This document shows, in pieces, positions 9,052 to 24,314 of a DNA stretch of 24,314 bases. Origin of the DNA: a virus; IMG/VR virus record IMGVR_UViG_3300025769_000820, positions 1 through 24,314 of that record, one strand, 5' to 3'. The notes beneath the pieces were generated by a model that worked only from the letters and a program-made list of their open reading frames with translations, did not search any database and was not told where the DNA came from. Both the position numbers and the translations under genes were made by a program. How positions within the stretch are numbered: position 1 is the first letter of the stretch; every line of letters starts with the position of its first letter.

Positions 9052-10266
9052 ATGAGTGCATTTATAAAACTCAACAAACAAGATGCGTTTATAACTCCGT
9101 ATACTGCGCATAAATCCTACTCCTATTCAACGAATCAGGAGAGGATTATTGCCGGTGTGAGGTTTAGGTTAGGGACTGCATTGAGTAGTTCTAGATCAGG
9201 AGATATTATCCCGACAACCTCAGATAGGTATCATAGCTCAGTTAAGCAGTTGTATTATTCAAATTACTCTGCTTCTTACGAAAGCGGTAGCTTTGATAAC
9301 TTTAACCAATCTACTTTATTCTTCACTAAGAGCTTATCAGATAATATTGCTATTGTATCTATTCCACAATTTCTATTCGGAGAGAATATTAAACCAGGAA
9401 CGTTTGAGTTTAACTCTGGATCAGTATTTCATATCATAGATGATGGAGAAGGAAATTTATTTGCATCAGGAGCAGTAAGTTATAATGCAACGATAAGCAG
9501 CTCTGTTAGCTCATCAAATCAATCGTTCACTTCAACAGATACCAGTACTATTGAAAGTATCCCCGGTATAAGTCGAATAAACTTTGTATCAGAAACTAAA
9601 GTGCCTAGCAACTATACAGTAACAACTGCATCATATAGCGGAGCAGAAGGCACGTCGCCATTTTATATAAATAATGGAACGACTCAAGTAACATTCGTAA
9701 CAGGATCCCAAGCTGAAGTACTTGCTGTTAACATCGATCAAATTGCAATTACATCGAATGATACCTCCAGGACTAGTTTTATAGATACAACAACTTCAGG
9801 CACTATCACAATCACTGCCGTAAGCTCCAGCATACAGACTACAACCACAAATCACGAGATACACCCTGCGAGCACAATCACAGATAACGAGCTACTAGGT
9901 AATATATACTACAGTCACGGAATGCTAACCTTAACTAAATCCGATGTAGCTAAGAGATTTCAAGAACAGGTACTGCGTTCTGGATCATTATCATGGAAAG
10001 GATCTCATACTATCTACGAACATACATACAATTGTAGATCTAACCAATCACAGTTAAACTACTCACTAAACCCATCAACATTTAACAATACAGACGAAAG
10101 CGGTTCTATTAACGACAACGTATCGGGAAGTTATTTCCAGCCATATGTCACAACAGTAGGACTGTATAACGATGCAAACGAACTCATAGCAGTTGGAAAA
10201 CTAGGACAACCTGTACCTAAATCACAATACAATGATATGACGTTTGCAGTAAAATTTGATGCATAA
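9052..10266 (+). CDS. Tail structural protein, paralogue B of a tandem pair
   Basis: 404 residues, related to the 312-residue protein just upstream. The shared frame is the PGTFEF region (about residue 116), followed here by the Asp/Gly turn DDGEGNLF, then GNIYYSHGMLTLTKS and LSWKGSHTIYEHTYNC, and the common C-terminus with TVGLYNDANELIAVGKLGQP. The extra length lies in a Ser/Thr-rich insert at about residues 140-285, which looks like an added beta domain and is the part most likely to differ in ligand or partner. The stop codon overlaps the next ATG. It is probably a baseplate/fibre component. Confidence 0.75.
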   Translation: MSAFIKLNKQDAFITPYTAHKSYSYSTNQERIIAGVRFRLGTALSSSRSGDIIPTTSDRYHSSVKQLYYSNYSASYESGSFDNFNQSTLFFTKSLSDNIAIVSIPQFLFGENIKPGTFEFNSGSVFHIIDDGEGNLFASGAVSYNATISSSVSSSNQSFTSTDTSTIESIPGISRINFVSETKVPSNYTVTTASYSGAEGTSPFYINNGTTQVTFVTGSQAEVLAVNIDQIAITSNDTSRTSFIDTTTSGTITITAVSSSIQTTTTNHEIHPASTITDNELLGNIYYSHGMLTLTKSDVAKRFQEQVLRSGSLSWKGSHTIYEHTYNCRSNQSQLNYSLNPSTFNNTDESGSINDNVSGSYFQPYVTTVGLYNDANELIAVGKLGQPVPKSQYNDMTFAVKFDA

Positions 10267-10742
10267 TGGCACTAACTCCAGTAAATTGGAGGTATGAAGA
10301 GCAACTCATCACAGAAATCTCAGACATGCCCGAAGGCACATATGGGTTTATCTACAGAGTTACACATCTACCAACTCAAAAAAAGTATATAGGAAAGAAA
10401 GTTTTGTTCTTTGAACGTAACGTAAAGTTAGGTAAGAAGGAGACAGAAGCTTTAAGAGAAGAGAGAAAAGCAGCCGGTATAGGTGGCCGAGTACCTGCTA
10501 AGAAAAAAGTAATTAAGGAATCTGACTGGAAGACTTATTACGGATCTCAGGAAGATATTAAAAAGCTAGCTCGTACCTCTAAACCAGAGGATTGGACTAG
10601 AGAGATCTTAGATTTCGTTCCTACAAAGAAATTGTTGACTTATTACGAAATAAAGCATATATTTAAGAACGATGCTTTAGAGGATTCAGATTTTCTTAAC
10701 GACAATATCTTAGGAAAGTTCTACAAGAAAGATTTTATATAA
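10266..10742 (+). CDS. GIY-YIG-like nuclease
   Basis: 158 residues. The N-terminal strand GFIYRVTH, the loop, and KKYIGKK match the GIY and YIG half-motifs of GIY-YIG nucleases (in variant form, GFIY/KYIG). The Lys/Arg-rich insert and SDWKTYYGS follow, with WTREILDF, then YYEIKHIF (candidate metal-binding Glu) and a late Asn (NDNILGKF), as in stand-alone GIY-YIG proteins common in T4-like phages. These are usually described as putative homing or DNA-processing endonucleases. It sits in-line in the structural operon, overlapping the genes on both sides by a single base at each ATG, so it looks like a resident gene and not a recent insertion. The substrate is unknown. Confidence 0.7.
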   Translation: MALTPVNWRYEEQLITEISDMPEGTYGFIYRVTHLPTQKKYIGKKVLFFERNVKLGKKETEALREERKAAGIGGRVPAKKKVIKESDWKTYYGSQEDIKKLARTSKPEDWTREILDFVPTKKLLTYYEIKHIFKNDALEDSDFLNDNILGKFYKKDFI

Positions 10743-11860: not shown

Positions 11861-12639
11861 TATATAAAGGTGCTAATGTTCTGAATGAACATAAGAAGAA
11901 GAAGTTAATGTACGATGGTCAATTAGAACAGATTACGTTCTTAGACCGTCGAGTTTACAAAAAGGAAGAAGGAGTTTATTACCCTTCTGTTACTACTGTT
12001 TTACAGTATATGCCTAAGAATAAGTTCTTCGATAACTGGCTGAAAGACGTTGGACATAATGCTGATCTCATTATGCGGAAAGCTGCACAAGAGGGTACAG
12101 CAGTACACGAGGCTGTAGAAGACCTGATTGCAGGTAAAGAGATTACTTGGATGGATGACTTCGGTAACGCTAAATACAACCTTACAGTTTGGAATATGAT
12201 CTTAAAAGCAGCAGAGTTTTTTAAGAAACATAAACCAACTATTATTGCTGCTGAAGAATTTACATTCTCAGACAAATACGAGTACGCAGGTACTGCAGAT
12301 TTGATTGTAGAGATGGATGGAGAAAGATGGTTACTTGATGTTAAAACTTCAAATAATTTACACCGTTCATACGACTTGCAGTTAGCAGCATATGCTAAAG
12401 CATGGGAAGAGATGTTCGGTCAAAAGATTGATAGAACAGGTATCTTATGGTTAAAATCTTCTAAGAGATCAGAATCAAAAAAAGAAGGAGTGTACCAAGG
12501 AAAAGGTTGGGAAATCAAACAAATCGATAATATCGATGAGAACTTCGAACTCTTTAAGACTATCTATAGTTTATATAAACTCGATAACCCGACTACGGAA
12601 CCTATTTATAATAGTTATCCTACCAAAGTTAAACTATGA
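11857..12639 (+). CDS. PD-(D/E)XK nuclease, RecB/Cas4-type
   Basis: 260 residues with all core motifs of the RecB-family nuclease fold in order: GTAVHEAVEDL (H84, E85), a beta strand with Glu (AAEEFTF), GTADLIVE (D148), LLDVKTS (D161-V-K163) and the Q-x3-Y motif (Q175, Y179). Such enzymes cut single-stranded DNA ends with a Mg or Mn ion. No Cys cluster for the iron-sulphur centre of Cas4/AddB is seen, so it is the plain single-domain form that is common in phages. Co-translation with the primase (ATGA overlap) points to a role in replication, recombination or end processing. The next gene also overlaps by 4 bases. Confidence 0.85.
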   Translation: MIYKGANVLNEHKKKKLMYDGQLEQITFLDRRVYKKEEGVYYPSVTTVLQYMPKNKFFDNWLKDVGHNADLIMRKAAQEGTAVHEAVEDLIAGKEITWMDDFGNAKYNLTVWNMILKAAEFFKKHKPTIIAAEEFTFSDKYEYAGTADLIVEMDGERWLLDVKTSNNLHRSYDLQLAAYAKAWEEMFGQKIDRTGILWLKSSKRSESKKEGVYQGKGWEIKQIDNIDENFELFKTIYSLYKLDNPTTEPIYNSYPTKVKL

Positions 12640-13487
12640 AACTAATCGAAGCTCTTCTATATGAAGCTCCTAAAAGCGCAAAAGCCATTATTATGGCAGG
12701 TGCTGCAGGTGCTGGTAAAACTACATTATATAAATCTGCAATCAAACCAAACTTACCTGCAGATCAATGGGAGTATTTAAATCCCGATACGTATATTGAG
12801 AGAGAAGAGAATCCGATGAACCTGTCAATGGCTAGTCAACAAGTTGATGCTAAAGACGTACCTCAAGCCATGGAAGGAAAGAAAAACTTCGTATGGGATA
12901 CAACAGCATCTAACGCTAATAGAATGCTTGGCGGTAAGATAGGAAATAAAAAAGAACCTCACCCAGGTTACTTAAATGACGGTAATTACGATTTCTTAAT
13001 GGTGATGGTATACGCTCACCCTATGGTATCGTTTTTACGTAACTTTAGTAGAGAGAGAAAAGTACCTAAGTTTGCCGTGTTAAAAACCTGGAACAGCGTT
13101 TACGGTAATATTGGAGCTTACAGCGCTAAATTAGGGAGGAACTTCCTTATGTATCAATCTCCAGCAGGAGATGCTGAGATGCAGAAAGAAGTAGATGCCT
13201 TCGAAGCTGCTTATAAAGCGAATAAATTAGAAGAGTACTTTACAGACCTCATCGAAAAAGGAGGAGATAAGTTCTCATCAAGTTTTAAATCTCAAGTACC
13301 TGATGAAGAATTATCTCCTGAAGAACTAGAAAAGAGACAAAAGAGCAGAGCGACTACTCAGAGACTCTTTCAACAAGAAGTAACTCAGTTAGCAACTAAC
13401 TTTGGCAAGGTTCGTGATGAGGTAGATAAGTACCTTGTAGGAAGTGAAGATGAAGTATCATCAAGAGTTAAGCAATTTGTAGGGTAA
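12636..13487 (+). CDS. P-loop kinase, zeta-toxin/polynucleotide-kinase-like
   Basis: 283 residues. A clear Walker A motif G22-A-A-G-A-G-K28-T-T is followed by NPDTYIE (about 49-55) and by a VWDTTASNANRM segment, an arrangement seen in zeta-toxin-like and polynucleotide-kinase-like P-loop proteins. A second conserved part has a basic RNFSRERKVP segment that could hold lid arginines. The C-terminal 80 residues are charged and helical. The first ten residues (MKLIEALLYE, then AP) look like the capsid-targeting peptide of T4 Alt (MELITELFDE), with a possible prohead-protease site after E10. The substrate is unknown: UDP-sugar, nucleic acid or protein are all possible. It overlaps the upstream gene by 4 bases and the downstream gene by one. 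Confidence 0.75.
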   Translation: MKLIEALLYEAPKSAKAIIMAGAAGAGKTTLYKSAIKPNLPADQWEYLNPDTYIEREENPMNLSMASQQVDAKDVPQAMEGKKNFVWDTTASNANRMLGGKIGNKKEPHPGYLNDGNYDFLMVMVYAHPMVSFLRNFSRERKVPKFAVLKTWNSVYGNIGAYSAKLGRNFLMYQSPAGDAEMQKEVDAFEAAYKANKLEEYFTDLIEKGGDKFSSSFKSQVPDEELSPEELEKRQKSRATTQRLFQQEVTQLATNFGKVRDEVDKYLVGSEDEVSSRVKQFVG

Positions 13488-15658
13488 TGAAAGTAGGAGT
13501 AATAGGAGGAGGATTTAAACCACCGCATAAAGGTCATTTTGCTTTTGCTAAACAAGCATTAAGCAAAGTACCGGACTTAGATAAGCTTCTTATTTACGTT
13601 GGAGGTAAAGTTAGAGCAGGAGCAGCTATTACTCAAAACCAAGCTATTGAGATCTGGAAACTCTATGCTAACGAACTACCAGGAGCTATTGAAATCCTAC
13701 CAGCAGATCAACCTATTGCAAAAGCATATAGTCAAGCAAGTAAAAATCCTGGAAATGAAGTTTTCTGGTTCCTAGGAGTTAGAGACGAAGATGACGCAAA
13801 AGAAGCAGATAGGAGAGAAGTTCATTTAAGAAAGAATCCTGAGAAGTATTCAAATCTAAATGTAATTAGGATTGCAGATACCGGTACAGATGTTAGCGGA
13901 ACAAAAGCAAGGAAGGCATTAGAAGCAGGAGATAAAGAAGCATTCTTTCAAGCACTGCCTGATGTAGTAGATAAAGATAAAGTATACGATATTGTGAAGA
14001 CACCGGAAACTAAAATGGCAGATGCTATCGATGAGTTATTTGCTAACTTCATGTATGAAGAACAAGAAGAAGTAGAGGAAGTAACTAAAGGCTCTCATGC
14101 AGCACCTATTGCAGTATTGCCTTCTGAGGAAAGACAGAAGCTACAAAACTATACAAAGATCTTACAAGACGCTTTACCAGATGAATTCGATGTAGAGTAC
14201 AGACAAGATCATATTAGAGTATCGGTACCGTATTTTGATAAAAATAAAAATCACCAAGATGATTGGACTCCTCATCAAAGACAGCTACCAGAAGAAGTAG
14301 CAGAAGAAACTACCGGTCAATTTGATTTTGCACCTCACATTGCTTCTATCTTAGAATACTGTATGACTAAAGGAATGAAAGTTACTCCTATCCCGGAAGT
14401 TAAGATCAGACAAGATGAAGAAAACGCAGCTAACTTATTCGGAAAAACAGGCTACTACGATCCACAGAATAGAGAGATTGTACTGTACGTAACCGGCCGT
14501 CATCCTAAGGATGTTTTAAGAAGCTTCTGTCACGAACTTATTCATCATATGCAAAACTTAGAGGGACAGAATCTAACTTTCTATACTACCGATGTTCATG
14601 CAAATGAAGAGTTAAAAGCTATTGAACAAGAAGCTCACGCTAAAGGTAGCTTCTTATTTAGAGATTGGGAAAACTCAAATAAAGAACAAGCTCCTATAGA
14701 TAAGGTAGATAGTTTACAAGAGATTTTGGATATGATTAATGAAGCAGGTTTAAAGGATTTTGAAAAACAAGCTTTAATTATGAAGATAAAAAAAGCAGCT
14801 AAAGGATCTGCCTCTACTAAACATCTGGAGCAAATTATTGATGATTTGATCAAAAAGCTTGAAAAACCTTCTGCTACCGGAGTTAAATATGTTCATGGAA
14901 AGAGAGTGGAAGAAGGAACTAAATACCGTTCTATCGTTGTAGATGTTAGAAAAGCAGTTAATGAGGCTCTTAATAAGTTACTGAAGGGAGAAAAGTTAGG
15001 AGGTTATAATTTACCGATTAAAAGGGAACCTACTGAGGAAGATAGAAAGTTAGCTAAGCAATACGGATTCACTCCTCTCGGACTCATGCTCAATTCTGAA
15101 TACCAATCAGCATACTTAGGAGTATTTAAGAGTCAGAGTGAGAAAGGTACACCAACTGAAGTAGGGGTATCACTCAAGTTTGCTCTTTCAGACGAAGTGG
15201 AGAAAGGAAAGTATTACGTTGATGGAGAAGCTTCTGCTGACGAAGCTGAATTAGATATCATTTTAGCATTCAACCCAGAAGACGGAACTAATATGCTTCA
15301 ACAAATTCAACCTACGTTAACAGACCTCATTCGTCACGAGACTGAGCACTTAACTCAAAGTGGAGAGCAGGTTAAGCCTGATAAATGGATGAGAGGTGAT
15401 CAAGCTAGGAGACAGAAGATTAGACAGAATCCTGAACTCTTTTATAAGTACTTCTTACTACCTAAAGAGGTGGATGCTAACATTCAAGGTTTGTACGCTA
15501 AGTCAAAATACGATAAAACTAACTTCCAGGACACTGTAGACGCTTACCTAACAGACTTAGTAGGTGATGGAATTATCACTCAAGCCAACAGTAAGCAGAT
15601 CTACAACAAGTGGAAAACTAGAGCAGCAGAAATAGGAGGAATACCAGAATTAAAATAA
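13487..15658 (+). CDS. Nucleotidyltransferase fused to two HExxH (zincin-like) regions
   Basis: 723 residues in at least three parts. Residues 1-175 form a cytidylyl/adenylyltransferase-type Rossmann fold: GGGFKPPHKGH with H14-x-G-H17, then FWFLGVRDEDD, and SGTKAR (137-142), the variant of ISxTxxR that binds the nucleotide phosphates. Residues about 180-205 are an acidic linker that itself contains an amphipathic ELFANFMYEE stretch. A first metalloprotease-like region has HELIHH (H349, E350, H353) with a downstream Glu-rich helix (ELKAIEQEAHAKG) that may give the third ligand. A second has HETEH (H617-H621) preceded by DLIRHE and followed by a helical C-terminus. The gene starts on the last base of the preceding stop and is 1 base from the next. 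Reaction partners are unknown. Fusion of these activities is unusual. Confidence 0.75.
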   Translation: MKVGVIGGGFKPPHKGHFAFAKQALSKVPDLDKLLIYVGGKVRAGAAITQNQAIEIWKLYANELPGAIEILPADQPIAKAYSQASKNPGNEVFWFLGVRDEDDAKEADRREVHLRKNPEKYSNLNVIRIADTGTDVSGTKARKALEAGDKEAFFQALPDVVDKDKVYDIVKTPETKMADAIDELFANFMYEEQEEVEEVTKGSHAAPIAVLPSEERQKLQNYTKILQDALPDEFDVEYRQDHIRVSVPYFDKNKNHQDDWTPHQRQLPEEVAEETTGQFDFAPHIASILEYCMTKGMKVTPIPEVKIRQDEENAANLFGKTGYYDPQNREIVLYVTGRHPKDVLRSFCHELIHHMQNLEGQNLTFYTTDVHANEELKAIEQEAHAKGSFLFRDWENSNKEQAPIDKVDSLQEILDMINEAGLKDFEKQALIMKIKKAAKGSASTKHLEQIIDDLIKKLEKPSATGVKYVHGKRVEEGTKYRSIVVDVRKAVNEALNKLLKGEKLGGYNLPIKREPTEEDRKLAKQYGFTPLGLMLNSEYQSAYLGVFKSQSEKGTPTEVGVSLKFALSDEVEKGKYYVDGEASADEAELDIILAFNPEDGTNMLQQIQPTLTDLIRHETEHLTQSGEQVKPDKWMRGDQARRQKIRQNPELFYKYFLLPKEVDANIQGLYAKSKYDKTNFQDTVDAYLTDLVGDGIITQANSKQIYNKWKTRAAEIGGIPELK

Positions 15659-15659
15659 A

Positions 15660-16949
15660 ATGCAAAGTTTGTTAGAATTGTTCGAAGTTACAAAAGAGGA
15701 TTTGAATCCTGAATTGAAGAAGTACCGTTTATATTGCGATATGGACGGAGTATTGTGTGATTTCAAATATCGTTTTGAATACCTATTCGGTAAAGGTCCT
15801 AGAGAGATCGAAGCTGAAAAAGGAGCACCTTACTTCTGGGCAATGATTAGAAGAGTAGGAGCTAAGTTCTGGTCTGGAATGCCTTGGACTCCATCAGGCC
15901 GTCAGTTATGGGCAGCAATCAAACAGTACGATCCAAAACTATTGACTGCACCTCCTAGAGCTTACAGAGACTTTAGTAACTTTGAACCTACAGCAGTTGA
16001 AGGAAAAACTCAATGGGCAGGTCAAAACTTAGGTTTAAGTTCTAGCGATGTTTTATTTAAGAGGTCAAAAGATAAGCAAGAAATTGCAACAAGTGATATC
16101 GCCAACGGTTATATCCCCATATTAATAGACGATAGGATTGATAATATTAACAACTGGAAATCCGCCGGAGGAATTGGGATACACCACCCAGAGAATGCAT
16201 CTGACATATCATCAGTTTTAGAAAGATTGAGAAAGTTATATAAAGAAGAACCTGTAGATGACTCTGAAAAAGAAGTACTCAAGGAACAGGTGAAGAAGAT
16301 AAAATTTACTCAACCCGCTTTAAATTATAGACCTGTATCTTTAGAACCTTACATAGATAAGGAGACAATGGACGAGCACTACGGTAATCACTTTAAGGGG
16401 TATACTGATAAATTAAATGCAGAGTTAAAAGAAAAAAACATTATAGTTGAAGCTGAAGATCAGATTGAAGCTATTCAAAAGATTTTAGGAAAGTACTCCA
16501 ATAACGACAAGATCAGAAACAATGGAGGAGGCTTCTACAACCACATACTCTACTTCGAGAATATGACTCCCATATATAAAGCTCCATCATCAAAACTCAG
16601 GAGGTTAATTGAAGAGAGTTTTAACTCTTTTACAGAATTCAAAAAACAATTTAAAGACGCTGGTTTAAAGCAGTTCGGTTCCGGTTGGGTATTTCTAATA
16701 GAGAAAGGAAATAAGTTAGTTATCGAATCTCACCCTAATCAAGATAACCCATATTTGGATAATCGATTTAAAGGGACTATCTTATTAGCAATGGATGTAT
16801 GGGAACACTCATACTATCTAAAACATAGATCTAGAAGAGAAGGTTATATAAACGACTTCCTTAGAGTAATTGATTACAGCGTTGCCGAAGGAAGATCTAA
16901 ACTGTTACAAAAAGAAGATGAGCGAAAGTCAACTGAAGAAAGAATTTGA
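15660..16949 (+). CDS. HAD-type 5'-nucleotidase fused to Mn/Fe superoxide dismutase
   Basis: 429 residues in one frame. Residues about 22-195 are a HAD phosphatase of the 5'(3')-deoxyribonucleotidase type: DMDGVLCDF (nucleophile D27, D29) and ILIDDR (D157, D158). After an acidic linker (about 196-218), residues 218-420 are a complete superoxide dismutase: ligands H240 (HYGNH), H295 (YNHILYF), D379 and H383 (DVWEHSYY), gateway Y248 and H244, and FGSGWVFLI. The H240-H295 spacing of 55 equals that of E. coli SodA, and G291 and Q361 (NQD) stand where Mn-type enzymes have their marker Gly and Gln, so manganese is favoured. The dismutase turns superoxide into oxygen and hydrogen peroxide. The N-terminus (MQSLLELFE) is helical and capsid-targeting-like. 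Confidence 0.88.
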   Translation: MQSLLELFEVTKEDLNPELKKYRLYCDMDGVLCDFKYRFEYLFGKGPREIEAEKGAPYFWAMIRRVGAKFWSGMPWTPSGRQLWAAIKQYDPKLLTAPPRAYRDFSNFEPTAVEGKTQWAGQNLGLSSSDVLFKRSKDKQEIATSDIANGYIPILIDDRIDNINNWKSAGGIGIHHPENASDISSVLERLRKLYKEEPVDDSEKEVLKEQVKKIKFTQPALNYRPVSLEPYIDKETMDEHYGNHFKGYTDKLNAELKEKNIIVEAEDQIEAIQKILGKYSNNDKIRNNGGGFYNHILYFENMTPIYKAPSSKLRRLIEESFNSFTEFKKQFKDAGLKQFGSGWVFLIEKGNKLVIESHPNQDNPYLDNRFKGTILLAMDVWEHSYYLKHRSRREGYINDFLRVIDYSVAEGRSKLLQKEDERKSTEERI

Positions 16950-17493
16950 TTCTAAAGCAGTAAATCGAGTTAGAAATCTAGTTAAGAAAGATTTTACTAG
17001 CCGAACTACAGTCGGAACAGGTTACTCTAAGAAGAGAGAGAAGCATAGCGAAGGAGACATCTGGAAAGAAGATGGTAGAACTTGGACTATAAGAAACGGT
17101 GTTAAACAAAATATAACTAAGTTAGACTCCGCTAAGAAATCTATGCAAACTCCTTTAACTTGCCCTAAGTGTGGAGGATCTATGAAACATCACTTAGCTA
17201 AAAAGATGTATAAGGTTCATGGCTTCTGTTTTGACTGTACTGTCGATATGGAAGCAGACTTACGAAAAGCAGGCTTGTACGAGAAGTACGAAAAGACTAT
17301 GATGAGAGGTAACATGGAAGCATGGGCAAACGGGTTAGAACAATGGGTACAGGACACCCTTGCAGAATCTATGACATATGTTACTGAAGAAGGTGATGTA
17401 GAGGACTGGAAAGGTAACACTCAGAAGCAGAAACAGGAGTTACTTACAGGTATGAACGAATACCTTAAGCATCTTAAGAAGCATATGGAGTAA
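16918..17493 (+). CDS. Zinc-ribbon protein, conserved hypothetical
   Basis: 191 residues from the ATG at 16918; an earlier in-frame ATG at 16870 would lie deeper inside the upstream gene and adds a non-conserved-looking tail, so I prefer 16918 (32-base overlap). The N-terminal 40 residues are basic. Then come EGDIWKEDGRTWTIRNGVKQ (about 45-64) and a four-Cys zinc ribbon C82-P-K-C85 ... C104-F-D-C107, followed by a helical charged C-terminus. I recall this arrangement from many T4-like marine phages, with no known function. The basic N-terminus and zinc ribbon suggest contact with nucleic acid or with the transcription machinery. This protein lacks the capsid-targeting-like start that its neighbours have. 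Confidence 0.7.
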   Translation: MSESQLKKEFDSKAVNRVRNLVKKDFTSRTTVGTGYSKKREKHSEGDIWKEDGRTWTIRNGVKQNITKLDSAKKSMQTPLTCPKCGGSMKHHLAKKMYKVHGFCFDCTVDMEADLRKAGLYEKYEKTMMRGNMEAWANGLEQWVQDTLAESMTYVTEEGDVEDWKGNTQKQKQELLTGMNEYLKHLKKHME

Positions 17494-17514: not shown

Positions 17515-18699
17515 ATGCTTTTAACAGAATCTAAACTAACAGAAGTATTAACGGAAGGGTTAAAGTACCATCTCGATACTAAAACACCGTTATATGAAAA
17601 TGTATACCGTCCAGGTTCAGAAGCATACTTCTCTACTATCAAACAAGCTCGTCATTTAATGAACAGAGGAATCCTCACAGAACTATGTTTAGAGGATACG
17701 GAGCTTTTATTTGAAACTGAAGTAGGAGAGTATGGAGAGTTTGAAGGTAAAAGAGTACCTCTAGATTTCCCGATGATTACTGAAGTAGTAGTTGTTACTG
17801 AACCTCAGACTACAGAATACACTCAAGCATGGAATGCCGCCAAACAAGATGAAATCATCAGAGGTATCGTTGAAAAAGAAGCTAGAAAGAAAAATATAGA
17901 GCCATACAATGCATGGCTAGAAATGGCTAGCAAAGGTAAAGCAGCAGGAGGAGCAGCATATACTGTAGGAGCATCATCAGTATCACAGTACTTATCAGAA
18001 GAAGATATGAACCCAGATGCTGACGTTTCTAAGGTAATGCCCATCTTAGCGGAGTTTATGCTAGAAGGGAATAAGAAGTACGTTATTTTAACCGGTCAAG
18101 ATACTTTTAGAGAGATCCAAACTGAAAACGTAGATGTATGGGTAGTAGATTTAACTATCTACCAAGCAGATTCTAAAGAAACAATTGCCGAAGTTCTCAA
18201 CGAATATGTTGATTATGAACCTAAGTACTTTGCTACTTGGTTTAGGGTATTAAAAGATATTGTAAGTAAGACTGAAGAAGACGTACACTACTACATGAAA
18301 GACCTATCAGGACCAGCTCACAAAGCTGCTGAATACTTTTTAAACTTTTTTAAGAAGAACCCAGGCGTTCGAGAAAAACTCCGTAAAAGTATGGGTATGT
18401 CTGAAGCAAAGTATCAAGGTAGAGAAGTAAAGCTCAATAAACCACAGAGAAGCACCGGTCCTAAGAAGTACAAAGTATACACTAAGAACGATAAAGGAAA
18501 CGTCGTAGTAGTAAACTTTGGAGACGCTAAAGGAGGATTAACAGCTAAGATTAATAACTCTAAAGCAAGAAAAGCCTTCTCAGACCGCCACAACTGTCCC
18601 GCCAAAAAAGATAAAACTAAAGCAGGATACTGGTCTTGCCGATTACCAAGATATGCAAGTTTACTCGGACTCAAATCAAGCTTTGGAGGATACTGGTAG
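17515..18699 (+). CDS. DUF5872-type protein with capsid-targeting-like start
   Basis: 394 residues. The start (MLLTESKLTEVLTEG) is an amphipathic helix with possible (L/I)-x-E cleavage sites after E10 and E14. The middle (about 55-290) contains FETEVGEYGEFEGKRVPLDF and a long mixed alpha/beta region. The C-terminal domain (about 305-385: YQGREVKLNKP, GPKKYKVYTKN, VVNFGDAK, then DRHNCPAKK and GYWSCRL) matches the DUF5872 pattern, found in many phage head-associated or uncharacterised proteins, with two conserved Cys residues. Function is unknown; prohead or virion association is inferred from context. The last 47 bases overlap the cupin-like gene in another frame. Confidence 0.7.
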   Translation: MLLTESKLTEVLTEGLKYHLDTKTPLYENVYRPGSEAYFSTIKQARHLMNRGILTELCLEDTELLFETEVGEYGEFEGKRVPLDFPMITEVVVVTEPQTTEYTQAWNAAKQDEIIRGIVEKEARKKNIEPYNAWLEMASKGKAAGGAAYTVGASSVSQYLSEEDMNPDADVSKVMPILAEFMLEGNKKYVILTGQDTFREIQTENVDVWVVDLTIYQADSKETIAEVLNEYVDYEPKYFATWFRVLKDIVSKTEEDVHYYMKDLSGPAHKAAEYFLNFFKKNPGVREKLRKSMGMSEAKYQGREVKLNKPQRSTGPKKYKVYTKNDKGNVVVVNFGDAKGGLTAKINNSKARKAFSDRHNCPAKKDKTKAGYWSCRLPRYASLLGLKSSFGGYW

Positions 18700-18994
18700 G
18701 CCTTACCAGAATCTTTCTGTTACAGATAAATGTATCATTAGAGAGTTCTCTTCTAATATTGATCCTGAAGAATTTAAATGGCATCAGGATGATGAAGATA
18801 GAGTAGTAACTATTTTAGAATGTGGTAAAGGATGGGGCTTTCAGTATGATAACGAATTACCATACGAAGTAGCTCCAGGAGACATCCTATTTATATTAAG
18901 GCATGAATGGCACCGAGTAATCAAAGGCGAAGGTAACTTGGTGATAAAAATAGATTTAGATGACACAAGATTCCTTAGACAAGAAGAAAACTAA
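18653..18994 (+). CDS. Small cupin-like protein
   Basis: 113 residues. The pattern FKWHQDDEDR, then TILECGKGWGFQYDNELPYE, then VAPGDILFILRHEWHRVIKG is that of a small beta-barrel of the RmlC/cupin type: H (in KWHQ), D/E in the same strand, the PGD turn, and H (EWHRV) in the second cupin motif, so a metal site is possible. I recall close relatives in T4-like cyanophages and marine phages beside structural genes. The gene starts 47 bases inside the upstream gene, in another frame, which is unusually deep; a start further in would remove the first part of the domain, so I keep 18653. It lacks a Shine-Dalgarno sequence. Role unknown. Confidence 0.65.
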   Translation: MQVYSDSNQALEDTGRPYQNLSVTDKCIIREFSSNIDPEEFKWHQDDEDRVVTILECGKGWGFQYDNELPYEVAPGDILFILRHEWHRVIKGEGNLVIKIDLDDTRFLRQEEN

Positions 18995-19001
18995 GAGCGA
19001 T

Positions 19002-19172
19002 ATGTACGCTTTTATGCGTGAACTCATCGAAGAAATACTCGCTGAAGAAAAACCAGGGTTATGGGCTAACATTAGAGCTAAGAGAGCAAGAGGTGAAAAA
19101 CCAGCTCACAAAAACTCTAAAGCACATAAAGACGCAGTAGCATCTGGCAAGAAGATAAATAAAGATAGCTGA
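19002..19172 (+). CDS. Small basic protein with GLWANIRAKRARGE motif
   Basis: 56 residues from the ATG at 19002. An upstream in-frame ATG at 18960 would overlap the cupin gene by 35 bases and give a 70-residue product; 19002 is preferred because the product then begins MYAFMRELIEEILAEEK, like several neighbours. The rest, GLWANIRAKRARGEKPAH and a Lys/Ala-rich tail, is a short motif I recall from proteins of many aquatic phages, sometimes joined to larger structural proteins. It is strongly basic after residue 17, so it could bind DNA. A possible cleavage site follows LAE (E15). Function unknown. Confidence 0.6.
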   Translation: MYAFMRELIEEILAEEKPGLWANIRAKRARGEKPAHKNSKAHKDAVASGKKINKDS

Positions 19173-19265: not shown

Positions 19266-19496
19266 ATGACTAGAGAAAAATTAACAGAAATCATAAGAGA
19301 GGTACTTGCAGAGATGCAAGAAGCCAAAGATGTTCATAAAGCAATGAACCCAGGAATCTTATCAAAAGACTCAAGCCTAAAAGGAGAAGACGGTAAGATT
19401 AAAATCTCCAAAGTAAGACAGAAACTTAGTAGCATGAAAGATAAAGGTAGTACTAAAGCTAAGGCTTTGCGTAGGTTTATTAACTACCACGACTAA
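19266..19496 (+). CDS. Small basic protein with capsid-targeting-like start
   Basis: 76 residues: an amphipathic, acidic N-terminal helix MTREKLTEIIREVLAEM (possible cleavage after E16 in LAE), then a basic, Lys-rich part (KIKISKVRQKLSSMKDKG, then STKAKALRRFINYHD) that is likely helical. After removal of the first 16 residues the remainder would be a 60-residue basic peptide, as expected of an internal DNA-associated head protein. I recall similar short proteins ending ALRRFINYH in other marine phages. Function unknown. It has a leader of its own without Shine-Dalgarno sequence. Confidence 0.65.
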   Translation: MTREKLTEIIREVLAEMQEAKDVHKAMNPGILSKDSSLKGEDGKIKISKVRQKLSSMKDKGSTKAKALRRFINYHD

Positions 19497-19499
19497 TTG

Positions 19500-19515
19500 C
19501 TATTTATAAAGAAAC
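19500..19515 (+). repeat. 16-base leader repeat, copy 2 (contains TATTTATA)
   Basis: Exact second copy of CTATTTATAAAGAAAC found at 17494-17509. It lies between the stop of the 76-residue gene and the ATG at 19524, 8 bases before that ATG. Both copies precede genes for proteins with the same type of N-terminal helix. Confidence 0.5.
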
Positions 19516-19523
19516 AAGATAAC

Positions 19524-20885
19524 ATGGCCATATCTTTTAGTAAACAAATGCTCGTAGAAGCTGTAAAACAGATTTTAGTAGAGCACGAAACAGATCCTAA
19601 CTTAGAACTTACAGTAAGAGATTATCAAACTAAGCACTACCATATGTGCCCAGGTGCTAAGACATTATACCAGGATATTGAAAGTAAAGTAGAGGATATC
19701 GATCTAGCAGTAAGAGCTGCTAAACTTCAAGACGCCTTATTCGCTATGGAAGAGATGGCATTAGAAAGAGGCGCAACTGAAGCAGATGTACTTGCTGCCG
19801 AAGCAGTAGCTAATCAAATCATGTCGATGGCTCAGATGATGGGTCTAGAGCAAGAGCACTCTTATATTCAAGGTCATGTTGATAAAATTAAAGCAGCATC
19901 AACCGGGGTAGACGAAAACACAACAGAAGTCCCAACTACCGACGGTACTGAAAAAACCGCTACCCCAGATCAGAAAAAAGTTATCATGCAAGCTAGAAAA
20001 AACGGTACACCGTTATCTTTCCGTAAAAAAGGAGATATAAAACCAGCCATGGAAGAAACACTTTCGGTAGGTCATATCGACGACGAACCTGGTATGTTGA
20101 AGCAGTTTGCATTCGATACTGCTGAGTACGCTGTTAAGCTCTATAAATTGCTACACCAGTATGAACAGATGGAAGATCAAGTAGATTTTCCAAACTGGTG
20201 GCAGCACAAGGTAATGATGGCTAGAGAGTATATATCTAAAGCCACTCACTACTTAGAGTTTGAGACTATGAAGCCTCAAATCGATGCAGCAGTAGACGGT
20301 CATTCTGAAGAACCGGATGAAGAATTGAACGAACTCTTTGGTAAAGCAAAAAATAAGATTGTCAACTATCAAGGACACGATTACGAAATCTTAGATATTG
20401 ATAGCGCAGGTACTTTTACTTTAATCGATCCAAAAGATAAAAGTGCAAAACCTTTCTATGTCAACAAAAAGCAAATGAAAACCGGTAGAGTACCAGATGT
20501 AAAAGAGCCTGAAGTAGAAGAAGTGCCGTTAATGAATTTAAGAGAGGATGATGTTGAAGCACCTGCTACAGGTTTTGAGGATGACTCAGCTAAAGCACCT
20601 AAAGGCGATAAGAAGTTAAATAAAGCTGCTTCTAAAGACGATAAGATTATCTCTGCATTTCAGAAAATACAGCCTCTGTTTAAAAAAGCAGCTGCTGGAG
20701 ATAAAGAAGCTTTAGCTATCGTTAAAGCTAACCAAGATGTAATAAAAGCTTATAAAAAAATGAAGCAAAAGCATCTAACAGAATCAAAAGCTACTTGTTG
20801 CGGTAAGTGTGGGAGAACACACGTTAAAGGTACTGAATGTAAAAAACCTTTTTTAACAGGTAAAGATCACTGTAGAGTAAGATAA
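19524..20885 (+). CDS. Head-associated hypothetical protein with C-terminal Cys-rich finger
   Basis: 453 residues. A TTG nine codons upstream (19497) is open in frame, but it covers the repeated leader, so the ATG at 19524 is chosen. The start MAISFSKQMLVEAVKQILVE has two (L/I)-x-E sites (after E12 and E20). The body is Glu/Lys/Ala-rich and helical, with a DYQTKHYHMCPGAK segment and KLQDALFAMEEMALERGA. Residues about 270-300 hold a small beta domain (KNKIVNYQGHDYEILDID). The end, CCGKCGRTHVKGTECKK followed by DHCR, is a Cys/His cluster that may bind zinc. I recall this family, including the terminal finger, from aquatic T4-like phages. Role unknown; core or internal head protein is inferred. 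Confidence 0.65.
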   Translation: MAISFSKQMLVEAVKQILVEHETDPNLELTVRDYQTKHYHMCPGAKTLYQDIESKVEDIDLAVRAAKLQDALFAMEEMALERGATEADVLAAEAVANQIMSMAQMMGLEQEHSYIQGHVDKIKAASTGVDENTTEVPTTDGTEKTATPDQKKVIMQARKNGTPLSFRKKGDIKPAMEETLSVGHIDDEPGMLKQFAFDTAEYAVKLYKLLHQYEQMEDQVDFPNWWQHKVMMAREYISKATHYLEFETMKPQIDAAVDGHSEEPDEELNELFGKAKNKIVNYQGHDYEILDIDSAGTFTLIDPKDKSAKPFYVNKKQMKTGRVPDVKEPEVEEVPLMNLREDDVEAPATGFEDDSAKAPKGDKKLNKAASKDDKIISAFQKIQPLFKKAAAGDKEALAIVKANQDVIKAYKKMKQKHLTESKATCCGKCGRTHVKGTECKKPFLTGKDHCRVR

Positions 20886-20886
20886 G

Positions 20887-21531
20887 ATGACTAAGCAAGA
20901 ATTAAAAGATATTATCGAAGAAGCTTATTACGAAGTATTAGCATCTGGTTTACTTTTCGAAGCCGAAGGCGACGAAGAGGAGACTGAAGGGGTACCGGAA
21001 GAAGCTCCTGATACTGAATTTGCCGATGCTGAAGAAGTAGAGGCAGCAGAAGATGAAGTTACTGATCCAACACCAGAGATCTTAGCTAAATTCCCTACAT
21101 TAAAGAAAACCATCGTTCACTTACTTACTCCCGACTACGAAGAGTTTGTAGAAAAAATTGGCTGGATGTCCCCTAAACCATCTACATTCAAAGTAGAGTT
21201 TAAGAACGGTCAAGACTTCCAATTAAAGTGGATGGGTAAAGGCTTTCAAGCTACTGTAGAAGGTAAGAGATACTTCTTAACCAACGTATCAGAATACCAG
21301 CAATGTTTAGATAAGATTGGACATATGTTAGCATCAGGTCCTATTACCGATCAATTCGCCGATGCAGAATCCGGTGAAGATGTATTTGGTGGTGCTGAAG
21401 GTGGAGGCGGAGACTTCCCCGGTGAAGAAGGCGGAGCCGCTGGATTTGGAGGTGGTGAAGAAGGAGGAACCGAAGCAGGAGCAGAAACATCATCCGGTGA
21501 AGAAGATGTATTCGCAGGCGTAGAAGCATAG
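20887..21531 (+). CDS. Acidic protein with Gly/Glu-rich tail and capsid-targeting-like start
   Basis: 214 residues. The N-terminus (MTKQELKDIIEEAYYEVLAS, then GLLFEAEGDEEE) is an amphipathic helix with candidate protease sites IEE/A and LFE/A. An acidic linker of about 40 residues leads to a compact domain (about 65-155) with FKVEFKNGQDFQLKWMGKGF and VEGKRYFLTNVSEY, a pattern I recall from other marine phage proteins. The last 55 residues are almost only Gly, Glu, Asp and Ala (GGAEGGGGDFPGEEGG and similar), unstructured and very acidic. Acidic, protease-cleaved proteins are typical of prohead cores (T4 gp22, gp67), so a scaffold/core role is plausible. Confidence 0.65.
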   Translation: MTKQELKDIIEEAYYEVLASGLLFEAEGDEEETEGVPEEAPDTEFADAEEVEAAEDEVTDPTPEILAKFPTLKKTIVHLLTPDYEEFVEKIGWMSPKPSTFKVEFKNGQDFQLKWMGKGFQATVEGKRYFLTNVSEYQQCLDKIGHMLASGPITDQFADAESGEDVFGGAEGGGGDFPGEEGGAAGFGGGEEGGTEAGAETSSGEEDVFAGVEA

Positions 21532-22752: not shown

Positions 22753-23328
22753 ATGAGAGGTTTTAAATTCGAACATATTGTAATACTAGTCTTAGGGGTA
22801 GCTTTACTATGGTTAACACAGTGCCGTAGAACAGAACCTATTGTAGATGAGATTATAAAAACAGAGGTTGTAACTAAATGGGATACTGTTGAGGTTGCTA
22901 AGACTGAATACGTTCCTAAAATCATTGAAAAGGTAGTAGTAAATATTGATACGTTTACTGCACCTATTGATACGATTTCAGTGTTAGAAGATTATTACGC
23001 AAAGTACTTTTACACTGATACTATTCAAATAGATACTTTAGGTTCTGTGGTGATAAATGATACTATCACTAGAAACTTAATTTCATTTAGAGATGTACAA
23101 TCCAACATTTTCATCCCAACAACTACAATTACTAATACTGTTTACCTCAACAGGAGGGAGTTTTACGGCGGTATTTCGTTAACTGGACAACCTACTCAAT
23201 TAGATTTTATTAACGGAGAGTTACTATACAAAGGTAAGAAGAGAAACGCTTACGGTATAGGGGTAGGTATCAATAATGAACTTGTACCTATCTACACTTT
23301 CAAAGTATTTTGGAAGATAGGTAAATGA
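22753..23328 (+). CDS. Membrane-anchored beta-rich protein
   Basis: 191 residues. One N-terminal hydrophobic segment (about residues 8-23, HIVILVLGVALLWLTQ) is preceded by two basic residues and followed by C24, so it is either a signal anchor with the remainder outside the cytoplasm or, less likely because of the Gln before the Cys, a lipoprotein. The exported part is Thr/Val/Asp-rich with repeated DTI/DTF units, and the C-terminus (FYGGISLTGQPTQLDF, then YGIGVGINNELVPIY) alternates like a membrane or barrel strand pair. I recall comparable proteins in phages of Bacteroidota. Spanin or envelope function in lysis is possible but unproven. Its stop overlaps the terminase ATG (ATGA). Confidence 0.6.
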   Translation: MRGFKFEHIVILVLGVALLWLTQCRRTEPIVDEIIKTEVVTKWDTVEVAKTEYVPKIIEKVVVNIDTFTAPIDTISVLEDYYAKYFYTDTIQIDTLGSVVINDTITRNLISFRDVQSNIFIPTTTITNTVYLNRREFYGGISLTGQPTQLDFINGELLYKGKKRNAYGIGVGINNELVPIYTFKVFWKIGK

Positions 23329-24314
23329 GTCAGCAAGACGTAAAGAAAATAGTAATACAGGAATACGCTAAGTGTGCAAAAGATCCTGCATACTTCATGC
23401 GTAAGTACTGTTATATACAGCACCCGCAGAGAGGACGTATATTATTCAACTTATATCCATTCCAGGATAAAGTTTTACATTTATTCAAAGATAATCAATA
23501 CTTAATTACTCTTAAATCAAGACAGTTAGGTATTTCTACTTTAGCAGCCGGTTACAGTTTGTGGTTGATGATCTTCCACAAAGATAAAAACGTACTTGCA
23601 TTAGCTACTACTCAAGCTACAGCCAGAAACCTTGTAACTAAGGTACAATTTATGTACGAACAATTACCAAGCTGGTTACAATTAAAAGCAGTAGAGAAGA
23701 ACAAACTATCGTTAAGATTAAAAAACGGTTCAAGAATATCAGCAAAATCATCTAATTCAGATGCTGCTCGTTCAGAAGCTGTATCATTACTTATTATAGA
23801 TGAAGCTGCATTTATTGACAATATAGATGAAACATTTGCATCAGCACAACAAACACTTGCAACCGGTGGTCAATGTATGGCTCTATCTACTCCCAACGGT
23901 ATTGGTAACTGGTTCCATCAGACCTGGGAAAAAGCCGAAACTGGTGAGAATAGCTTTATCCCAATCAGGCTACCGTGGACTGTTCACCCTGAAAGAAGCC
24001 AAGTGTGGAGAGATCTACAGGATGCCGACTTAGGTCCTAGGATGGCCGCTCAAGAGTGTGACTGTGATTTTTTATCTTCCGGTGATACGGTATTTGAACC
24101 TGAAGACTTAATCTTCTACGAAACAACAGCTCAAAACGATCCTATTGAAAAACGAGGAGTAAGCGGTGATTACTGGATATGGGAGTACCCAGACTATACT
24201 AAGAGTTATATGGTTGTTGCTGATGTTGCTAGAGGTGACGGACAGGATTTCTCCGCATTCCATGTGTTTGATATTGAAGGAGCTAATCAAGTTGCTGAGT
24301 TTAAGAGTAAGGTG
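23325..24314 (+). CDS. gp17: Large terminase subunit, T4 gp17-like (3' end outside window)
   Basis: 330 residues are visible and the frame runs off the right edge. The ATPase part has a variant Walker A, S65-R-Q-L-G-I-S-T72, in which the Lys that normally follows the Gly is replaced, as in many phage terminases (a Lys or Arg nearer the start of the loop serves instead), a Walker B LLIIDEAAF (D159, E160) and the coupling motif LSTPNGIG (188-194). The nuclease part begins with VVADVARGDGQDFSAF (D300), the first metal-binding acid of the RNase H-like fold. The enzyme pumps DNA into the prohead and cuts the concatemer. It is translated from an ATGA overlap with the upstream gene. No small-terminase gene is recognised beside it. 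Confidence 0.92.
   Translation, partial: MSQQDVKKIVIQEYAKCAKDPAYFMRKYCYIQHPQRGRILFNLYPFQDKVLHLFKDNQYLITLKSRQLGISTLAAGYSLWLMIFHKDKNVLALATTQATARNLVTKVQFMYEQLPSWLQLKAVEKNKLSLRLKNGSRISAKSSNSDAARSEAVSLLIIDEAAFIDNIDETFASAQQTLATGGQCMALSTPNGIGNWFHQTWEKAETGENSFIPIRLPWTVHPERSQVWRDLQDADLGPRMAAQECDCDFLSSGDTVFEPEDLIFYETTAQNDPIEKRGVSGDYWIWEYPDYTKSYMVVADVARGDGQDFSAFHVFDIEGANQVAEFKSKV

Follow-up and report, generated by a model that had tools for sequence, protein, structure and literature searches.

The open reading frame (ORF) at 15660-16949 (+) of the window, the whole 24,314-nucleotide stretch of viral DNA analysed here, encodes 429 amino acids without an internal stop and joins a 5'(3')-deoxyribonucleotidase to an Fe/Mn superoxide dismutase (SOD). 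We read it as a two-part head-cargo precursor, from which the phage head protease would free the nucleotidase and the SOD for delivery at infection. We put the probability of this reading at roughly three in four.

An intact fusion of two enzyme domains

To describe the fused frame we combined its translation with profile searches, predicted structures and alignments with related phages. Its features were as follows (here and below, an arrow marks a cut placed by the [L/I]-x-E motif).

15660..15686, + strand: N-terminal propeptide MQSLLELFE, with [L/I]-x-E read from the sequence and a predicted cut after E9 (LFE↓VTK)
15717..16238, + strand: HAD-type 5'(3')-deoxyribonucleotidase domain, residues 20-193 (phrog_2643; catalytic D27/D29/K139/D157/D158)
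16239..16298, + strand: disordered linker, residues 194-213, with the predicted cleavage site VLKE209↓QVKK
16299..16895, + strand: Fe/Mn superoxide dismutase domain, residues 214-412 (Pfam, phmmer, Foldseek; ligands H240/H295/D379/H383)
16896..16949, + strand: C-terminal tail, ending in STEERI and a stop and overlapping the start of the next gene (DNA alignment with the SOD-less phage L003)

Residues 215-410 matched the Pfam domains PF00081 (1e-17; 64.7 bits against a cut-off of 27) and PF02777 (3e-29; 101.4 bits against a cut-off of 20.9), and phmmer matched 155 solved SOD sequences (best 1.2e-41). The AlphaFold2 model of the SOD domain had a pLDDT of about 90 and fitted MnSOD and FeSOD crystal structures in Foldseek, with a TM to target of 0.80-0.89 (E 1e-16 at TM 0.83). 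The metal ligands H240, H295, D379 and H383, the gateway tyrosine Y248 and the second-sphere glutamine Q361 were all present, each with a conservation of at least 90% across the SOD set, and the residues G291 and Q361 hint at a metal site of the Mn type.

In PHROGs, residues 19-183 matched the 5'-3' deoxyribonucleotidase family phrog_2643 (4e-22). The DxD of motif I, the lysine of motif III and the acidic motif IV were all found, and D27, D29, K139, D157 and D158 were invariant among 28 phage nucleotidase homologues. The model of this domain, built with AlphaFold2 from its own alignment, had a pLDDT of about 97, and its fold match in Foldseek was loose (TM 0.45-0.5); the best PDB matches at that level were cytosolic and mitochondrial deoxyribonucleotidases, headed by the human cytosolic enzyme 2i7d (E 8.5e-5). 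The pLDDT fell below 50 at residues 1-19 and 193-211, which predicts disorder on either side of the nucleotidase. Neither Pfam nor PHROGs gave a peptidase domain in the frame. The original prediction had named D27, D29, D157, D158, H240, Y248, G291, H295, Q361, D379 and H383, all of which were found where it had placed them, and its full SOD and 5'-nucleotidase-type domains were borne out by these profile, residue and SOD-fold results.

The same fusion was met again on L002, an independent 99-kb phage contig, with 86% protein identity and the same neighbours, so the two-domain order occurs elsewhere and the joint is no assembly error. Purifying selection acts on both domains: between the window and L002, dN/dS was 0.08 in each of them, and at the N-terminus it was about 0.03. 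Misassembly or a frameshift was ruled out by the two independent contigs, the open frame and the dN/dS of 0.08, and the earlier view of a continuous frame that is no decayed remnant held on the same grounds. Contamination by a bacterial SOD was ruled out by the phage genes on either side and by the phage clade to which the SOD belongs.

The SOD as a mobile module

A profile search gave 68 viral SOD loci, in most of which the SOD stands alone. Three sister phages (L003, L004 and L005) carry no SOD, with 88% identity over the nucleotidase; their nucleotidase runs from ...LYKED directly into ...STEERI, whereas the window has its SOD module between the two. The DNA alignment with the SOD-less sister phage L003 places the insertion of the SOD module just upstream of STEERI. 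Five of the 68 loci embed the SOD in ORFs of 1014-1614 amino acids, whose modules come in varied combinations (nucleotidyltransferase-like, SOD, plastocyanin-like cupredoxin, zeta-kinase, acetyltransferase and nucleotidase). These giant SOD-bearing ORFs were:

L006, 8195-13039
L007, 6044-9088
L008, 1431-5663
L019, 3071-6832
L023, 1485-5405

In the SOD tree, a single clade with support 100/96 took in 32 of the 34 SODs labelled as phage; it adjoined the SODs of Flavobacteriales and branched beside those of Flavobacteriales, Saprospiraceae and Chlorobiota. At least four changes between the fused and unfused states were needed on this tree. The SOD is thus a mobile module, which is found alone, within other large ORFs, or not at all in close sister phages.

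Some candidates were not used as examples of phage SODs. L011 (MW462191) and contigs from clinical isolates look like bacterial DNA; L011 has metabolic genes and no phage neighbours. The 'phage' records OR84xxxx/OR85xxxx hold near-cellular SODs in tiny unannotated records. Since several 'phage' SOD records look like host DNA, database counts of SOD in phages may be inflated. A divergent SOD-like protein, annotated as hypothetical, was seen in Pseudomonas phage PA5oct (gp223, L267:2956-3504), with the N-terminus MNDSIKKYISIAE↓AASS; the record carries an ESI-MS/MS note, and the protein was possibly detected in the virion.

The [L/I]-x-E motif at N-termini and domain junctions

In T4, propeptides target the internal head proteins to the prohead core, and gp21 cuts after L/I-x-E; these propeptides are 10-19 residues long in the IPs and 7 in Alt (PMC9026906). 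The T4 record gave MAKINELLRE↓S for gp24, MKTYQEFIAE↓A for ipII/ipIII and FLTE↓A for gp23, with the cuts set by the published motif. The fused frame starts with an N-terminal propeptide of this type (about 7-20 residues with an L/I-x-E end), MQSLLELFE↓V, which aligns with NLLE↓AY and DLLLE↓E of its relatives. Within it, E6 (LLE↓L) fits the motif too.

Stand-alone phage SODs and nucleotidases showed an extension of 9-20 residues ending in [L/I]-x-E. Examples from the SODs are MKLMSILTE↓A, MIKLTDILKE↓V, MKLSKLILE↓N, MKIKDILFE↓Q and MNYDKLADLILE↓E. The motif lay ahead of the fold in 27 of 30 distinct stand-alone phage SOD N-termini; the other three, one of them the bacterial-looking L011, had no strict motif. 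Cellular SODs mostly start directly (MAFELPKLPY...), and 11 of 80 carried the motif even when [LIV] was allowed, several of the 11 being over-long ORF calls. The comparison of 27/30 with 11/80 gave a Fisher p of 9e-14, a significance that is inflated by the kinship of the phages. The extensions vary in sequence and in length, which argues against one inherited string.

Two further observations concern N-termini in related phages. In Flavobacterium phage immuto, gp092, gp076 and gp077 (L086, 78000-127999) have different annotations and share a similar N-terminal string, FDLKKFLVENKLTxNS...LKE / NLRSFLTENKLTKNAQLLKE. This string has a pair of L-x-E sites and represents a second kind of CTS-like N-terminus; one immuto copy precedes a cobalamin adenosyltransferase-like protein. 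Related nucleotidases at L164, L167, L172, L173, L174 and L178 have almost no N-terminal extension (e.g. MKPRIYCDMDGVL), and no gp21-type protease was found in the fragmentary records of these six. They are a possible natural control.

Outside the SOD fold, the fused frame has [L/I]-x-E at E6, E9 and E209 only. The nucleotidase is free of it, and E209 is the sole such site between the two domains. Its position matches that of IIRE, TLQE, PLKE, NITE and TLNE in other fused SODs. In an alignment anchored on PxID, in which L037, L038, L041 and L042 were not placed by the anchor, all seven fused SODs had the motif 20-22 residues before the anchor, and stand-alone SODs had it at 15-35. The junction of L038 is propeptide-like (LKSLLME↓EEA), and L041 holds in mid-chain what resembles a whole second propeptide (MKMSDILLE↓AKGFSLP, compared with MIKMSDILLE↓AKGFSLP in the stand-alone L040). 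The junction of the window reads EVLKE↓Q and that of L002 EVIKE↓Q, so that [L/I]-x-E is retained despite the change from L to I at P3.

The motif also precedes other modules. Among fused nucleotidases it stood at most 15 residues before the domain in 17 of 19 non-redundant cases, with two lacking it, against a null mean of 2.5 (maximum of 9 over 2000 resamplings; binomial 2e-13), although shared phage ancestry inflates the p-values of these motif tests. In the giant ORFs of 1000-1600 amino acids it was found before the SOD, zeta-kinase, acetyltransferase and nucleotidase modules and before one of two cupredoxins. The shortness of L-x-E is a weak point of the cargo-precursor reading. Five further L-x-E lie inside the SOD fold (E258, E264, E318, E319 and E348), of which E258 and E264, at or near a loop, might be extra cut sites.

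These data bear on two other explanations. The first is a permanent bifunctional enzyme, in which the two domains would remain linked and work jointly in the infected cell. One open frame with both domains intact and conserved on two independent contigs is what it would lead one to expect. However, close relatives have the SOD absent or alone, the fused state has changed repeatedly on the SOD tree, the SOD is joined to several unrelated partners, and [L/I]-x-E sits at the junctions, here within a disordered linker; we consider a lasting fusion improbable. The original prediction was right about two intact domains in a phage gene, and its delivery of protection to a newly infected cell is plausible, but the fusion enzyme as the point of the gene is probably wrong, given the mobile SOD, the repeated changes between states and the junction motif.

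The second is an ordinary auxiliary metabolic gene, expressed during infection, whose product is not packaged; the L-x-E N-termini would then be, for example, an amphipathic docking helix or a localisation tag. The SODs of other phages that have no such N-termini (L073 and Vibrio phage 2.275.O) speak for it. Against it, the N-termini match experimentally known T4 propeptides, the motif clusters in a block that runs into the head genes, and it also occurs at internal module boundaries, where an N-terminal docking helix would make no sense. An unpackaged enzyme is accordingly unlikely.

Head genes, the proposed pathway and known systems

The order of genes in the window was primase, exonuclease, zeta-like kinase, a 723-aa ORF, the fused ORF, a 191-aa zinc-ribbon protein, short proteins and terminase. 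The neighbours of the fused ORF were:

12636..13487, + strand: zeta-toxin-like P-loop kinase (Pfam Zeta_toxin, 1e-6), CTS-like N-terminus MKLIEALLYE↓APK; probable co-cargo
13487..15658, + strand: 723-aa multidomain ORF, nucleotidyltransferase-like N-terminus and metallopeptidase-like segments (HELIHH, HETEH)
16918..17493, + strand: 191-aa zinc-ribbon-like protein, conserved; in relatives the next gene downstream, whether or not they carry the SOD module
17515..18699, + strand: 394-aa protein, N-terminus MLLTESKLTEVLTE↓G; probable co-cargo
18960..19172, + strand: 70-aa protein, N-terminal LIEEILAE↓E; probable co-cargo
19266..19496, + strand: 76-aa protein, N-terminal IIREVLAE↓M; probable co-cargo
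20887..21531, + strand: 214-aa acidic protein, N-terminal GLLFE↓AEG; probable co-cargo or core protein
23325..24314, + strand: large terminase subunit (from its translation), running off the end of the window; a marker of the T4-type block of head genes

The 723-aa ORF is the counterpart of the front part of the giant relatives. The terminase region has the gene order of immuto (TerL-portal-protease-MCP) and of contig G001. In immuto, whose arrangement is similar, the nucleotidase gp087 stands alone; downstream come the terminase and portal genes and then those for the gp21-type protease, the scaffold and the major capsid protein. The source of the window is likely a T4-type phage of Bacteroidota. 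Two gene calls in the window deserve comment. The ORF at 19497-20885 was called from TTG, and its likely start is an internal ATG giving MAISFSKQMLVEAVKQILVE↓H, a CTS-like N-terminus. PHROGs gives the label 'NAD synthetase' (phrog_447), apparently in error, to the SegE-like GIY-YIG protein (PF19835) at 10266-10742 and also to immuto gp100.

We counted N-terminal [L/I]-x-E across whole gene sets. In immuto it was present in 24 of 32 genes of the block from segE to the MCP and in 41 of 192 others (p 6e-9), and on contig G001 in 16/25 versus 24/81 (p 0.002). On G003, where genes were called crudely and the interval was fixed, the enrichment was not significant (13/30 versus 61/196, p 0.13); the SOD and the nucleotidase of G003 have clear propeptides. 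Because the hypothesis was already known when the limits of the blocks were drawn, the tests lend support but do not amount to independent proof.

Of 12 related records searched, eight, among them immuto, Melnitz and L002, contained a gp21-type protease (PF03420); the four without a match were all contigs of 47-70 kb. In a second record set it was present in the four largest. L002 therefore carries both the fusion and a gene for a gp21-type (S77) prohead protease. The window ends at the terminase, and hence its own protease gene is not in view.

Processing could also come from another enzyme. In the published model of polyvalent proteins (PMC5512222), proposed for other phages and conjugative elements, the protein would be injected whole and an embedded metallopeptidase would free its domains in the host. 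The metallopeptidase-like HExxH segments among the neighbouring and fused modules agree with this, but the fused ORF itself lacks a peptidase module, and putative ones were seen only in the neighbouring ORF and the giant relatives. The junctions carry a head-protease motif and stand-alone SODs have the same type of propeptide, and we regard release by an embedded peptidase as very unlikely.

For the head-cargo precursor we propose the following pathway. MQSLLELFE would act as a T4-like capsid-targeting sequence and bring the chain into the prohead core, where a gp21-type prohead protease would cut after E9 and E209 (VLKE↓Q), so that the 5'(3')-deoxyribonucleotidase and the Fe/Mn SOD become separate proteins. 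DNA would then be packaged around both enzymes, and both would reach a new host together with the genome. In that host the SOD would quench superoxide early, in the first minutes and ahead of phage gene expression, while the nucleotidase may act on nucleotide pools or signals, by recycling host nucleotides or removing signal nucleotides. The mature products are likely two separate head-packaged enzymes; we infer their targeting, cleavage, packaging, injection and physiological roles. With somewhat less confidence, we favour a wider reading in which phages of the T4-type lineage make head-packaged enzymes as modular polyproteins that the capsid-maturation protease splits, and so deliver a shuffled enzyme kit (SOD, cupredoxin, nucleotidase, kinase) with their DNA.

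If true, this would be a cargo polyprotein processed by a capsid protease in bacteriophages, and a SOD delivered by the phage particle. L-x-E before a domain may mark the head-loaded, injected proteins of these phages, so that, for a large group of aquatic T4-type phages, the sequence by itself would be enough to predict which proteins enter the host first. It suggests that some phages carry superoxide protection in, instead of making it after infection, and that phages have cleavable cargo polyproteins with a logic comparable to the polyproteins of eukaryotic viruses. The propeptides may also serve for loading proteins into phage heads.

In the open-licence literature our searches turned up neither a described nucleotidase-SOD fusion nor any described cargo polyprotein that a prohead protease cuts in trans, and the MIJ3 paper holds no virion data for SOD. 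The proposed targeting and cutting follow the chemistry of the T4 internal proteins, and the layout with several enzymes resembles that of the polyvalent proteins. These are large proteins of many domains, predicted to accompany the DNA into the host and to be processed, which Iyer et al. 2017 liken to viral polyproteins (PMC5512222). The fused ORF likewise has two unrelated enzymatic domains near virion genes, and its relatives have several. However, that paper, which never uses the word 'superoxide', ascribes the processing of polyvalent proteins to embedded metallopeptidases or to assemblin-like domains at the C-terminus (PMC5512222), whereas here sites of the head-protease type lie between the modules.

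A packaged SOD encoded by a virus is known from Chlorella virus PBCV-1, whose Cu/Zn SOD A245R is reported in the virion and coincides with lower superoxide during infection; superoxide was lower with the SOD-packaging chlorovirus than with a SOD-less relative (PMC7019647). PBCV-1 is a eukaryotic virus with an unrelated Cu/Zn enzyme and no described cleaved precursor. The ejection proteins of the giant phages phiKZ and SPN3US are similar in that they are head proteins which a gp21-related protease cuts after x-x-E and which are ejected into the host; they differ by an A-x-E or S-x-E motif and mostly long propeptides, and SOD is not mentioned in the passages on them that were consulted (PMC5694885). 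Another comparable protein is immuto gp087, a 5'-3' deoxyribonucleotidase at the same gene position with the CTS-like N-terminus NLADLLLE↓ES and no SOD module. With T4 IPI, IPII, IPIII and Alt the common features are a short [L/I]-x-E propeptide, a gp21-type protease and the order of the head genes. T4 has one internal protein per gene and no SOD among them, whereas in the phages described here the enzyme modules lie in one chain with sites at their boundaries.
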